Shown here: piece by piece, positions 53,306-58,246 of the stretch
Position numbering within the stretch: position 1 is the stretch's first letter
Layout: each line of letters begins with the position of its first letter
NCBI RefSeq assembly: GCF_004564135.1
Contig: NZ_CP038255.1
Span: 2,839,501-2,903,500, forward strand
Length of the DNA stretch: 64,000 nucleotides
Reading direction: 5' to 3'
Source: Terasakiella sp. SH-1
GTDB lineage: Bacteria > Pseudomonadota > Alphaproteobacteria > Rhodospirillales > Terasakiellaceae
The notes under the pieces: generated by a model
Database searches by the model: none
What the model saw: only the letters and a program-made list of their open reading frames with translations
Told to the model about the DNA's origin: nothing
Made by a program: the position numbers and the translations under genes

Positions 53306-53332
53306 AAGCCTCGCCTTTATTTGGCGGGGCTT
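53306..53332. terminator. Bidirectional terminator after pckA
   Basis: Arms 53306-53315 and 53323-53332 pair over ten bases with one wobble. The left flank is an A-run and the right flank is T-rich, so it can act on pckA and on the convergent diguanylate cyclase gene, whose stop lies in the loop. Confidence 0.8.
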
Positions 53333-54468
53333 TCTTCATTTTCATCACGATCCTCATAATGGCGAAGCTGGTGCCCGCCTTTTAAGTGAGCAGCCCCTTT
53401 GGCACGATACATGGCGCTATCAGCCTGTGTGACCAGCTCTTCCATTCCAATGAAGTTTTCAGGACCGGTTTCACTCACTCCCATGCTGAAACTCACCCCG
53501 TAGGTTTCTCCCTGATCGAATGTCTCTTGCAGGCGGCTACAAAAATTCTGTGTCGCTTCCCAATCGGAATTGGGCAGAATCACACAAAATTCATCCCCGC
53601 CATACCGACAACAAATATCAGATGTGCGTGCCGTTTCCAGCATGACCTGACCAATATAGGATAACAGCTCATCCCCGGCACGATGACCTTGGCGGTCATT
53701 CAAGCTTTTGAATTTATTAAGGTCAAAATAAACAAGGGAGAGTTGATTTTTATTACGTTCTGCCACAGCCAGTTCATGACGCAAACGTTCGTAGAAAGAA
53801 CGCTGATTATGCAATTGGGTGAGACTGTCAGAACGTGAAATCTCTTCAAGTTGGCGGGTACGTTCAGCAACCGTTTGCTCCAGTGTCTCAGCATAATGTT
53901 CCACTTCTTCCTTGGCTGTTTCCACTTCAGAAATCATGGAATTAATATAGGTGTCAAACACCAGCTGAATATCCAGCATCAACAGTTTGCGCAAGGCCGT
54001 TGAACAACGAAACGCTTTTTCCTCATCCCCATCACTGGCATCCGTCAAATAACGATACAGGATTGTTTCAAGGCGCGATAAAGACGAAATATAAAGTTTA
54101 GGCGATACACCAATACTGTTATGCACCTTACCAATCCGTAAACGGCGGTTCACATAGGTCGTATCATAATAGCCTTCAAACAATTCCAGCACATATCGCT
54201 TCATGGAACTGTGCAGACGTCGAAACGTCTCCGCATCCCCAATCAAAAGCTGAATTTCACGAATCGAGCGTTGATAGTTATAAAATTCATCAACAATCTG
54301 CTCTATATGTTCCTGAACATAGAGCTTACATTCTGTCAGGGCCTTTTCATCATCCTGAAAAAAACCAATCAATTCCTTACGCTGGGCAATATCACGTTCC
54401 GTGATTTTTAACTGTTCTGCCAACGTCATCGCTGTCAGGCCACCCTCGTGGCTTGAAAAATCTTCCAC
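53317..54468 (-). CDS. Globin-coupled-sensor diguanylate cyclase
   Basis: 383 residues. Residues about 20-175 are a sensor-globin domain with the proximal heme His116 in RIGKVHNSIGVSPKLYI. A coiled coil (about 180-212) leads to a GGDEF domain. The active motif GGDEF (290-294) is intact, and an RxxD inhibitory site (R281-D284) lies five residues upstream. It should make cyclic-di-GMP in response to oxygen or NO bound at heme. The GTG at 54466-54468 has AGGGAG ahead; an ATG 13 codons downstream is an alternative. The stop lies inside the pckA terminator. Confidence 0.9.
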   Translation of the reverse strand: MEDFSSHEGGLTAMTLAEQLKITERDIAQRKELIGFFQDDEKALTECKLYVQEHIEQIVDEFYNYQRSIREIQLLIGDAETFRRLHSSMKRYVLELFEGYYDTTYVNRRLRIGKVHNSIGVSPKLYISSLSRLETILYRYLTDASDGDEEKAFRCSTALRKLLMLDIQLVFDTYINSMISEVETAKEEVEHYAETLEQTVAERTRQLEEISRSDSLTQLHNQRSFYERLRHELAVAERNKNQLSLVYFDLNKFKSLNDRQGHRAGDELLSYIGQVMLETARTSDICCRYGGDEFCVILPNSDWEATQNFCSRLQETFDQGETYGVSFSMGVSETGPENFIGMEELVTQADSAMYRAKGAAHLKGGHQLRHYEDRDENEESPAK

Positions 54469-54622
54469 CGGAGCTATCTCCCTTTCATCAAGGCTATCTT
54501 ATGGTGATCTCTTTTCCATCTATTTTCAATAGGTTATTTTAGTATATGATGAGCGCAACAGTTGTGCATTTACCCTAAACTTCGTAGAATCATCTAAGAT
54601 TTTTATTTAAGGCTATCTTCAC

Positions 54623-56908
54623 ATGGATTCATTGGGCGCACTTTTTTTAGGCATGATTGCCATCGTGGTACTGTTCGTACCTGCGCTCATCTGGCTGTGG
54701 CGTAAAAATAAAATAAGCCTGGCAGAACGTGAAACACTCGGCCAGCAAATTGTCCAACTCCAAGAAGTTCTGGTCGGCATTCCTGATGGGCTCTATCGCT
54801 GGAATGTGGTCAACGGGGTTGAAAACTGCTCAGCACGCATGGCGGTTTTGCTAGACCTGCCTAAAGGCACCCAGTCCCGTTACGGCGATATTCTGAACTG
54901 CTTTGATGACGAAGCGGCACGCACTCTGGATGCAGCGGTTTCCACCCTCCATGGCGAAGGCATGAGCTTTGATATCATTCTCCCCTTACAAGGCGGGGAT
55001 GACCGGGTGATCCAGGCTGTGGGGCAACGTGTTCTAAGCGAAGATGGTGCCCCCTTGGTCGATTTGCTTTTCATGCGTCTGGCCAATGGGGCAATCGTCG
55101 CTAATGGTCCCATGGCGCGTTCCCTCAAGACCATGACCAATGAACGCAACCGCCTTATTTCGGTTTTGGAAAGTATTCCCCTGCCCATCTGGATGCGTGA
55201 TGCAGCCGGCCATATTGTGTATCACAACCCCGCAGCCCCTGATACAGACCACACCCAACATATTGCCCAACGTGCCATGGAAGCGGGTCGCGAAGTGCGC
55301 GAACGTATGAGCCTGCCCTTTGGTCACGATGCCCGCCTGTTTGAAGTGGCCGAAATCCCCTTACCGGCTGGCGAAGGCTTTATTGGTCTGGCCGAAGATA
55401 TGACCACAGCAGAAAATATGGTCGAAACCGCCCAACGAGGTGAAAGCCTGCTGCGTGCCGCCCTTGAAAACCTTGTCACAGGCATTGCCATTTTCAGCGG
55501 GGATACAAGACTGGACTTTTACAATACGGCCTATGCCAACTTGTGGGGGCTGGATACAGACTGGCTGGATGACCGCCCCTCTTACGGTGAGATCTTGGAT
55601 CGTTTACGCGACACTAGAAAACTGCCCGAATATGCCAATTTCAAAGCCTTCCGTCAGGAACAGGTTGCCAAATTTGTTGAACTGCAAGCCAGCGAAGAAA
55701 CCAGCCTGCACCTGCCTGATAATTCCACCATCCGGGCCATTATCAGCCCCCACCCGGTCAGTGGTCTGGTGATGACCTTTGAAGATGTCAGCGATACCGT
55801 GGCCCTTGAAAGTTCGAACAAGGCTCTCTCCGCCGTACAACGCGAAACACTGGATAACTTGTTTGAAGGCGTCGTCGTGTTTGCCCCCAATGGCAAGGTT
55901 CGCCTGTTTAACCCGGCCTTTGCCCAAATCTGGCACCTGCCTGAAGAGTTCCTGTCAGCGACCCCCCATATCACCGAAGTCCTAGAACAGTGCAAAGGTT
56001 TCTATGAAGGGGTGGAAAACTGGCCGTCTTTTCGCGAACAGCTGGTCGCACGCATCATGATGCGTGAACCCAATAACCAACGTATGGTTCGCAGTGATGG
56101 CTCTATTTTGGAATATGCCTCCGTGCCACTGCCCGATGGTGGCTCGCTGCTGTCCTATCTTGATGTCACCGACAGTGCAACTGTGGAACAGGCCCTGCGT
56201 GAACGATCCGATGCCCAACACGAAGCCGACCGCCTGAAATCCGAATTCATCGCCAATGTATCTTATGAGATCAGAACCCCATTGACCACACTGGTTGGTT
56301 TTGCTGAACTTCTCTGTGAACAATATTTCGGCGCACTCAACAAACGCCAAATGGAATATGCCAAAGGTATTCACACCAGTGCAGAACTGCTCAGCACACT
56401 GGTCTCAGACATTCTGGACCTCGCCAATATTGAAGCTGGGCAAACCACCCTTGAACTGGATACTGTCGATATCCAGCCCATGCTGGTCAGCGTTCTTGGG
56501 TTGGTCAAGGAAACCGCCCGCAGCCGCCGTGTGGTACTGGAATATGATTGTGCTCAGGATATTGGCTGGATCACCGCTGATGAAAAACGCCTTAAGCAAG
56601 TGATCTTTAACCTATTGACCAACGCCATTCGCTACACCCCGCCCGGTGGCAGCGTCACTCTGGCTGCCAAACGCAACCCCTATCATATGGTCTTTAGTGT
56701 CTCTGATACCGGTAGTGGCATTCCACAGGCCGATCAAAATCGTATCTTTGGCAGTTTTGAACGCGGTGAAACCCAGGAGGCAGGCCATGGCGGAGCCGGT
56801 TTGGGCCTGACATTGGTGAAACGTTTCATCGAATTACACGATGGAAGCGTGACACTGGACTCTGTTCCTGATAAAGGAACGGTTGTGACCTGCAGACTGC
56901 CCTTATAG
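54623..56908 (+). CDS. divL: DivL-type PAS pseudo-kinase with Tyr in the phospho-acceptor position
   Basis: 761 residues. One N-terminal membrane anchor (about 7-27) is followed by PAS-like domains at about 43-160, 175-265, 275-390 and 405-520. A HisKA-like domain has FIANVSYEIRTPLTTL, where Tyr548 replaces the phospho-accepting His. The HATPase part keeps NLLTNAIRYTPPGG, DTGSGIP and GHGGAGLGLT. Length, anchor, multiple PAS and Tyr (Caulobacter Tyr550) match DivL, which controls the CckA-ChpT-CtrA pathway in cell division. Identity rests on this pattern; a DivL paralogue is possible. Three genes follow in the same direction, ending with an Hpt protein. Confidence 0.8.
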   Translation: MDSLGALFLGMIAIVVLFVPALIWLWRKNKISLAERETLGQQIVQLQEVLVGIPDGLYRWNVVNGVENCSARMAVLLDLPKGTQSRYGDILNCFDDEAARTLDAAVSTLHGEGMSFDIILPLQGGDDRVIQAVGQRVLSEDGAPLVDLLFMRLANGAIVANGPMARSLKTMTNERNRLISVLESIPLPIWMRDAAGHIVYHNPAAPDTDHTQHIAQRAMEAGREVRERMSLPFGHDARLFEVAEIPLPAGEGFIGLAEDMTTAENMVETAQRGESLLRAALENLVTGIAIFSGDTRLDFYNTAYANLWGLDTDWLDDRPSYGEILDRLRDTRKLPEYANFKAFRQEQVAKFVELQASEETSLHLPDNSTIRAIISPHPVSGLVMTFEDVSDTVALESSNKALSAVQRETLDNLFEGVVVFAPNGKVRLFNPAFAQIWHLPEEFLSATPHITEVLEQCKGFYEGVENWPSFREQLVARIMMREPNNQRMVRSDGSILEYASVPLPDGGSLLSYLDVTDSATVEQALRERSDAQHEADRLKSEFIANVSYEIRTPLTTLVGFAELLCEQYFGALNKRQMEYAKGIHTSAELLSTLVSDILDLANIEAGQTTLELDTVDIQPMLVSVLGLVKETARSRRVVLEYDCAQDIGWITADEKRLKQVIFNLLTNAIRYTPPGGSVTLAAKRNPYHMVFSVSDTGSGIPQADQNRIFGSFERGETQEAGHGGAGLGLTLVKRFIELHDGSVTLDSVPDKGTVVTCRLPL

Positions 56909-56921
56909 GAATGGAACGGAT

Positions 56922-57323
56922 ATGAGTACAGCTGACATGCAAGCCATTGCCGAACGCCTTGCCGCTATTCGCGATATTATTATTGATCGCGAAGGTGAAG
57001 AAGTTGCTGACCAGTTTGAAGTTGATAACTATATCCTCATCATCAATATCGACGGCAGCGGCTATAGCGAAGATGAAGAGGTTTTCACCCTGATCCAGCT
57101 GGAAAAAGGTCCCGCAGGTATGGAAAGCCTGATTGCCTGTGCCGTTGAAAATCAAGAGGGTGACAGTTTCATCATTGCCGGGGAAGATGAAAACATACTG
57201 GACCAACTGGATGAGGCTTGCGATAAGGTCTATCGCCATTGGCACTGGCTGGATCTCCCCAATGCCCTGCCCGGTTCTGAAATAGAAGACGAAGACGATT
57301 TCGATGACGAAGAAAATTTCTGA
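56922..57323 (+). CDS. Unrecognised acidic protein, divL operon
   Basis: 133 residues starting 13 bases after divL. An N-terminal helix (about 1-30) is followed by alternating strand-like hydrophobic segments (YILIINIDG, VFTLIQLEKG, LIACAVENQ, SFIIAGED), then a helix and a very acidic tail (EIEDEDDFDDEENF). The pattern suggests a small alpha/beta fold with a negatively charged tail, perhaps for binding a basic partner. No family was recognised. It overlaps the next gene by 20 bases. Confidence 0.65.
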   Translation: MSTADMQAIAERLAAIRDIIIDREGEEVADQFEVDNYILIINIDGSGYSEDEEVFTLIQLEKGPAGMESLIACAVENQEGDSFIIAGEDENILDQLDEACDKVYRHWHWLDLPNALPGSEIEDEDDFDDEENF

Positions 57324-57741
57324 AGATTATAAATTTTATGCCAATTTCCTGCGTTTTGTCGCGGCCAAAACCGACAAAGCAGACGTCAATGTCAACGCCA
57401 TGATGGCCGAACTTAATCAGGCGGCTGATCAGATTGAAAAAGGATCGCGTTTTACCCTACTGGCCAGTCGCGCCCAAGCAGCCTCGCGTGCCTTTGCCGG
57501 TGTTGCCCAGTTTCTGCAACATCGCATCCTACCAGAAGCACAGGCCCATGGCGATAAAACAGCCCTTGCCCAGCTGGAATGGGCGATTGCCGCCTCCTTA
57601 CAAGTTGGTCGTGCGGTGATTTTACACCTTGATGACATTGAACCGGATAAAGTCGCCACCGAATTTATTGAAATCAAAATGCCCGGATTGGAACGCACAC
57701 CAGGGGTTCACGAACAAAGCGATAAACCGACGTTGCATTAA
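57304..57741 (+). CDS. Unrecognised all-helical protein, divL operon
   Basis: 145 residues starting within the last codons of the preceding gene. The sequence is predicted mainly helical: YKFYANFLRFVAAKTD, AMMAELNQAADQIEKG and AQAASRAFAGVAQFLQHRIL. It resembles a four-helix bundle by pattern only. No family was recognised. The 20-base overlap argues for coupled expression with the acidic protein and so for joint function. It is followed by an Hpt gene after 49 bases. Confidence 0.65.
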   Translation: MTKKISEDYKFYANFLRFVAAKTDKADVNVNAMMAELNQAADQIEKGSRFTLLASRAQAASRAFAGVAQFLQHRILPEAQAHGDKTALAQLEWAIAASLQVGRAVILHLDDIEPDKVATEFIEIKMPGLERTPGVHEQSDKPTLH

Positions 57742-57790
57742 ATTCTTAATTAGTCCATTATGGGCCAAATTATAAAAGATAGGCAAGAAA

Positions 57791-58141
57791 ATGAGCGATA
57801 TGCTGTGTGAAGACACCCTCAACGAATTGGTTGAACAAGTTGGTGCTGAACTGGTTGAAACCCTGCTGGTCGATTTGACTCAGGATGCAGGTGATCGTGT
57901 GCAAAATATGCAAAAACTATTGGCCGATGGCGCCATGGATGATCTGCGCAAAGAAGCTCATACACTTAAATCTTCTGCCGGTACACTCGGCCTGAAAATC
58001 GTTTCTGAAAAAGCAGCCATTATTGAACGCAAGCTGGTCACAGGTGAAGGCCCCGATGTGGCCCCTATCGTGCCGGAATTGCCCCAATTGCTGGAAGACG
58101 GCCTTGCTGCGGCCAATGCCTGGATTGCCACCAAGCTGTAA
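57791..58141 (+). CDS. Histidine phosphotransfer (Hpt) domain protein
   Basis: 116 residues. A stand-alone Hpt four-helix domain; the phospho-His is in AHTLKSSAGTLGLK, the standard Hpt motif. It would shuttle phosphate between a kinase receiver and a regulator. It is the last gene of the divL cluster. It is not an obvious ChpT, which is a longer dimeric protein. A DivL-linked phosphotransfer role is an inference. Confidence 0.88.
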   Translation: MSDMLCEDTLNELVEQVGAELVETLLVDLTQDAGDRVQNMQKLLADGAMDDLRKEAHTLKSSAGTLGLKIVSEKAAIIERKLVTGEGPDVAPIVPELPQLLEDGLAAANAWIATKL

Positions 58142-58162: not shown

Positions 58163-58246
58163 CGTCATCCCCAACTTGATTGGGGATCCAAAATTTTTTG
58201 ATTCTCAATAGGTTAGTGGATTCTCAGTCGAGCTGAGAATGACAAG
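58163..58246. repeat. Dispersed inverted repeat, copy 3 (divergent)
   Basis: Left arm 58163-58189 (CGTCATCCCC...GGGGATCC) and right arm 58218-58246 (GGATTCTCAG...GAATGACAAG) are more divergent but keep the CGTCATCC/GGATNN ends and length. Two half-arm hairpins also form on their own. It lies between the Hpt gene and the convergent racemase gene, as in the other intergenic copies. Confidence 0.6.

Follow-up and report, generated by a model that had tools for sequence, protein, structure and literature searches.

In Terasakiella sp. SH-1, a divL gene with tyrosine at the position of the phosphoacceptor histidine is followed by two genes that match no protein family and by a gene for a stand-alone Hpt protein, which raises the question whether DivL works in this organism with dedicated partners. 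The stretch of DNA analysed, referred to as the window, comprises 64,000 nucleotides of the complete 3.83-Mb Terasakiella chromosome.

The divL locus and its conservation within Terasakiella

Open reading frame calls reproduced exactly the positions, the order and the common direction of the four genes given in a first-pass annotation, and the coordinates bear out the reported overlap of ORF2 with ORF3 (Table 1). In the window, a gap of 13 nt separates divL from ORF2, and one of 49 nt separates ORF3 from the Hpt gene.

Table 1. Features of the divL locus (window coordinates).
Feature	Position	Strand	Description
divL	54623-56908	+	761 aa; heads the four-gene run; N-terminal hydrophobic segment, tandem PAS, DHp (HisKA) with Tyr548 replacing His, HATPase
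Tyr548 codon of divL	56264-56266		acceptor position, in SYEIRTPL
ORF2	56922-57323	+	133 aa; acidic alpha/beta protein with acidic tail
ORF3	57304-57741	+	145 aa; predicted four-helix protein; belongs to an unnamed Rhodospirillales family with the core R..AGVAxFLQ..ILPE
ORF2/ORF3 overlap	57304-57323	+	20 bases; ORF3 start inside ORF2 end
Hpt, stand-alone	57791-58141	+	116 aa; PF01627, AHTLKSS motif

The identification of the first gene as divL is upheld by its PAS, HisKA and HATPase domains with intact Asn667, G1 and G2 boxes and by Caulobacter DivL 4q20 as the closest solved structure by sequence (E 1.4e-51); equally, a tree separates the DivL orthologue clade from seven Terasakiella kinase paralogues with support of 100/100. 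Common to the window protein and Caulobacter crescentus DivL (4q20; PMC4211667) are the acceptor tyrosine, the PAS-DHp-CA layout and the intact N, G1 and G2 boxes. Among the DivK-docking residues of the Caulobacter protein (R553, T557, Y562, H579), the arginine and the threonine are identical in the 4q20 alignment, whereas Tyr562 and His579 are replaced by Phe and Tyr.

The order divL-ORF2-ORF3-Hpt is kept in six out of six species of Terasakiella, the one genus that represents its family in the genome collection; Terasakiella pusilla and T. brassicae are the named relatives, and the loci of MAGs labelled Methylocystaceae group with theirs. Over the window and four relatives, the divL-ORF2 gap amounts to 4-17 nt, the ORF2/ORF3 overlap to 8-20 nt (8-17 bases in the relatives versus 20 in the window) and the ORF3-Hpt gap to 49-63 nt. 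With pN/pS of 0.14-0.31 against relatives for each of them, all four are to be considered real genes under purifying selection, which together with the order kept throughout the genus argues against a chance set of open reading frames. As the genes 5' of divL vary between species, the four-gene block holds while one flank changes; the aminotransferase and uvrC genes on the 3' side are retained too, so that close kinship may account for some of the synteny, and synteny within the genus alone constitutes moderate evidence. Judged from the tight spacing, the kept order and the kept overlap, the four genes very likely form one operon in Terasakiella, with co-transcription and translational coupling between ORF2 and ORF3 inferred on the same basis.

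A promoter and terminator scan of the region returned sites at chance level. Equally, the CtrA-box scan yielded 21 sites versus 22 expected by chance, and a one-mismatch site at 54607 therefore carries no meaning. An inverted repeat (ATCCCCAA...TTGGGGAT) at 58167-58187, just beyond the Hpt gene, was scored as a minus-strand terminator and is likewise at chance level in the region. Divergent from divL, a protoglobin-GGDEF diguanylate cyclase (PF11563 and PF00990) is encoded at 53317-54468 on the minus strand; a comparison of four Terasakiella loci did not show this gene next to divL.

Distribution and context of ORF3, ORF2 and the Hpt gene

ORF3 has no significant match in Pfam, NCBIfam or PHROGs, and was found in 33 of 120 Rhodospirillales genomes and, outside the order, in two genomes of a class-wide sample, one of which is marginal (E 0.007). 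The 70 named ORF3 loci include Thalassospira, Kiloniella, Magnetovibrio, Magnetospirillum and Telmatospirillum. The structure model (mean pLDDT 87.7, core above 90), with a short N-terminal pair and a long helix hairpin, confidently predicts a four-helix protein; its two short strands qualify the initial description of ORF3 as all-helical. A Foldseek search against the PDB and viral libraries gave no match at E 0.001, the best ferritin-like/rubrerythrin comparison (VIA Z 5.9 over 70 residues) lies within the chance range for helical bundles, and no profile similarity to the DivL DHp and Hpt alignments was detected (hhalign probability <1%).

Next to divL, ORF3 occurs only in Terasakiella and in one sister-family genome (G004), in which its start lies about 15 bp beyond the end of divL, ORF2 is absent and the surrounding genes differ from those in Terasakiella. 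In the DivL tree this genome is sister to Terasakiella (100/99; DivL identity about 49%), a placement that concerns the only genome of its family (f5), with a long ORF3 branch. With its occurrence on both sides, the divL-ORF3 pair seems older than Terasakiella, with ORF2 and the Hpt gene gained later there or lost in G004. In all other families whose ORF3 surroundings were read, ORF3 lies away from divL, so that a general role of ORF3 cannot depend on divL.

The neighbours of ORF3 vary in most lineages and comprise genes for a biotin carboxylase, a DUF188 protein, an EAL-cNMP protein, a caspase-like protein and a hybrid kinase. Signalling genes among them are a divergently oriented hybrid kinase in Thalassospira, an HWE kinase in Telmatospirillum J64-1, EAL-cNMP and GGDEF genes in the Magnetospirillum group and a receiver in Magnetovibrio. 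In a position-based test with lineages averaged, P was 0.03-0.18 when Terasakiella was included and 0.06-0.37, hence not significant, when it was excluded, an enrichment that is suggestive at best; a strong first density count was set aside, as its seeds derived partly from the neighbours themselves. Directly 5' of ORF3 in Magnetovibrio, a protein of about 205 aa is encoded (L128:9369-9980, L133, L137:9354-9983), the L128 copy of which has no Pfam match, and in a Rhodospirillaceae MAG ORF3 adjoins a gene for the caspase-like (PF00656) protein (L139:8846-9946). On a contig labelled Terasakiella sp. PR1 (L148), ORF3 clusters with sequences of the Magnetospirillum type and not with those of Terasakiella, and mislabelling or contamination of this record is possible.

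In the window divL is the first gene of the probable operon with ORF2, ORF3 and Hpt, whereas in several other Rhodospirillales families it precedes tsaE and an aminoglycoside-phosphotransferase-like gene. This linkage is absent in Terasakiella, where tsaE is located about 180 kb off (G000:C1:3073854). Genomes without ORF3 still have divL, often followed by tsaE, and this together with the changing neighbours of ORF3 and the non-significant enrichment of signalling genes is what would be expected of an operon of convenience, in which ORF3 has a job of its own, divL is a mere neighbour and ORF2 and the Hpt gene joined later without a tie to DivL. However, overlap, spacing and order are conserved in Terasakiella, and the divL-ORF3 pair is common to the sister family despite differing surroundings; such an arrangement of convenience is a serious possibility that falls somewhat short of probable.

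ORF2, with a pI of 4.05, agrees with its first description as an acidic protein and has no significant match in Pfam, NCBIfam or PHROGs. No relative of ORF2 from other genera turned up in the order and class samples apart from weak fragment matches, which in the class-wide profile search had E values of 0.008 or worse, and plasmids and phages gave no match; as far as these searches reach, ORF2 is an orphan confined to Terasakiella. Its structure model, built from five sequences, is poor (pLDDT 61.6). Calmodulin-like matches (E 0.14) were discarded as chance acidic matches. Equally, a frataxin/CyaY identity was dropped, with the sole PF01491 match of the genome located elsewhere (C1:2367369) and an hhalign probability of 0.9%; the frataxin resemblance (VIA Z 4.3) was seen on the poor model only.

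The last gene is a stand-alone Hpt, as originally annotated: it scores 52.3 bits versus the curated PF01627 cut-off of 24.6, and AHTLKSS is conserved in five of five aligned Hpt sequences. With the LuxU-type stand-alone Hpt 1y6d it has the single-domain build and the H-x-L-K-S-S motif in common (E 0.003). Orthologues were found only in Terasakiella, the sole other match being in one Magnetospirillum-group genome, at 35% identity and in a much longer open frame. Like ChpT (PF10090), the window protein would be a relay phosphotransferase, but it matches PF01627 only and contains no HPTransfase domain, ChpT being a separate gene: the single PF10090 match of the genome is situated at C1:497468, away from the divL locus. 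That the Hpt replaces ChpT between CckA and CtrA in Terasakiella, as its position in the divL operon might suggest, is most improbable in view of the ChpT-family gene present above cut-off in three of three Terasakiella genomes searched; with ChpT encoded elsewhere, the Hpt is not needed as CckA-CtrA phosphotransferase. Another reading takes ORF2, ORF3 and the Hpt as the input module of a separate phosphorelay, with a hybrid kinase encoded elsewhere and DivL met by co-expression only. The 75 histidine kinase matches in the genome, the acceptor motif of an Hpt distinct from ChpT, and the Thalassospira ORF3 divergent from a hybrid kinase gene speak for it; in Terasakiella, however, the locus has no hybrid kinase gene as a neighbour, and we regard this reading as unlikely.

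A putative accessory role at DivL

The reading that we pursue, tentatively and at somewhat less than even confidence, is that the accessory proteins of the operon tune DivL, a proposal in which every interaction step is inferred. DivL, presumably unable to autophosphorylate owing to Tyr548, would be an allosteric sensor that switches CckA between its kinase and phosphatase states. ORF3, the older divL neighbour, would be a small helical protein which docks on DivL (or CckA) and tunes this switch, and ORF2 an acidic adaptor specific to the genus, co-produced with ORF3 and probably in complex with it. The Hpt would feed in or drain phosphate from another hybrid kinase or receiver, and ChpT would still serve CckA-CtrA. 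ORF2, ORF3 and the Hpt are plausible as partners of DivL on genomic grounds, namely the order kept in the six species, the conserved spacing, the divL-ORF3 pair in the sister-family genome and the ORF3 relatives near signalling genes. The existence of inputs to DivL besides DivK has been proposed, with further factors acting on DivL suggested for Hyphomonas neptunium (PMC7200025). Osp of Rhodobacter (PMC9430884), a lineage-specific small protein that inhibits CckA and so tunes it, serves as an analogy only for ORF2 and ORF3; Osp is a receiver-like single-domain regulator, whereas they match no Pfam family.

Of the new signalling system with dedicated DivL partners that the first-pass annotation had envisaged, the identity of DivL and the set and order of the four genes stand, while the partnership remains putative, the computations having tied none of ORF2, ORF3 and the Hpt to DivL function. 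Synteny across Rhodospirillales, to which that annotation had looked, fails beyond the genus for ORF2 and the Hpt orthologue and in the other families read for ORF3. Rather than lying apart from divL in all relatives, both family-less genes accompany it across the genus, and ORF3 does so in the sister family as well. By its gene distribution, the 'DivL system' amounts to an operon at the level of the genus, assembled around a divL-ORF3 pair of earlier origin. A wider extrapolation, which we consider doubtful, would make ORF3 the founder of a Rhodospirillales-wide family whose members, small helical regulators, dock on hubs formed by histidine kinases or pseudokinases; in Terasakiella ORF3 would have become fixed to DivL and would form a lineage-specific input branch into CckA-CtrA with ORF2 and the Hpt.

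The DivL acceptor residue across Rhodospirillales

According to Childers et al. (PMC4211667), alphaproteobacterial DivL proteins all share Tyr550, save that of Magnetospirillum magneticum, which has Ala. Among 31 Rhodospirillales DivL orthologues, read at window codon 548 and in loci L045-L070 and L079-L082, the acceptor residue is Y in 10, H in 12, A in 3, R in 2 and F, V, Q and G in 1 each, which amounts to at least 10 changes on the DivL tree. Orthology was defined by the tree that separates all of these from the seven Terasakiella paralogues and, in family f19, also by divL-tsaE synteny. Histidine is kept together with intact Asn, G1 and G2 in the DivL orthologues of families f2, f6, f10 and f19; in family f21, five of six orthologues have histidine, and in all six the N-box Asn is lost and an intact G2 box is absent. 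On the evidence of these alignments, the tyrosine rule of PMC4211667 does not hold in Rhodospirillales. Read from sequence, loss of DivL catalysis looks to have followed several routes.

To our knowledge, no inputs to DivL besides DivK are known, and the two uncharacterised proteins encoded in the conserved operon are specific candidates for such inputs. The acceptor-residue result may matter more than the operon finding. The spread of residues at this position offers a natural series on when and how often DivL turned into a pseudokinase.
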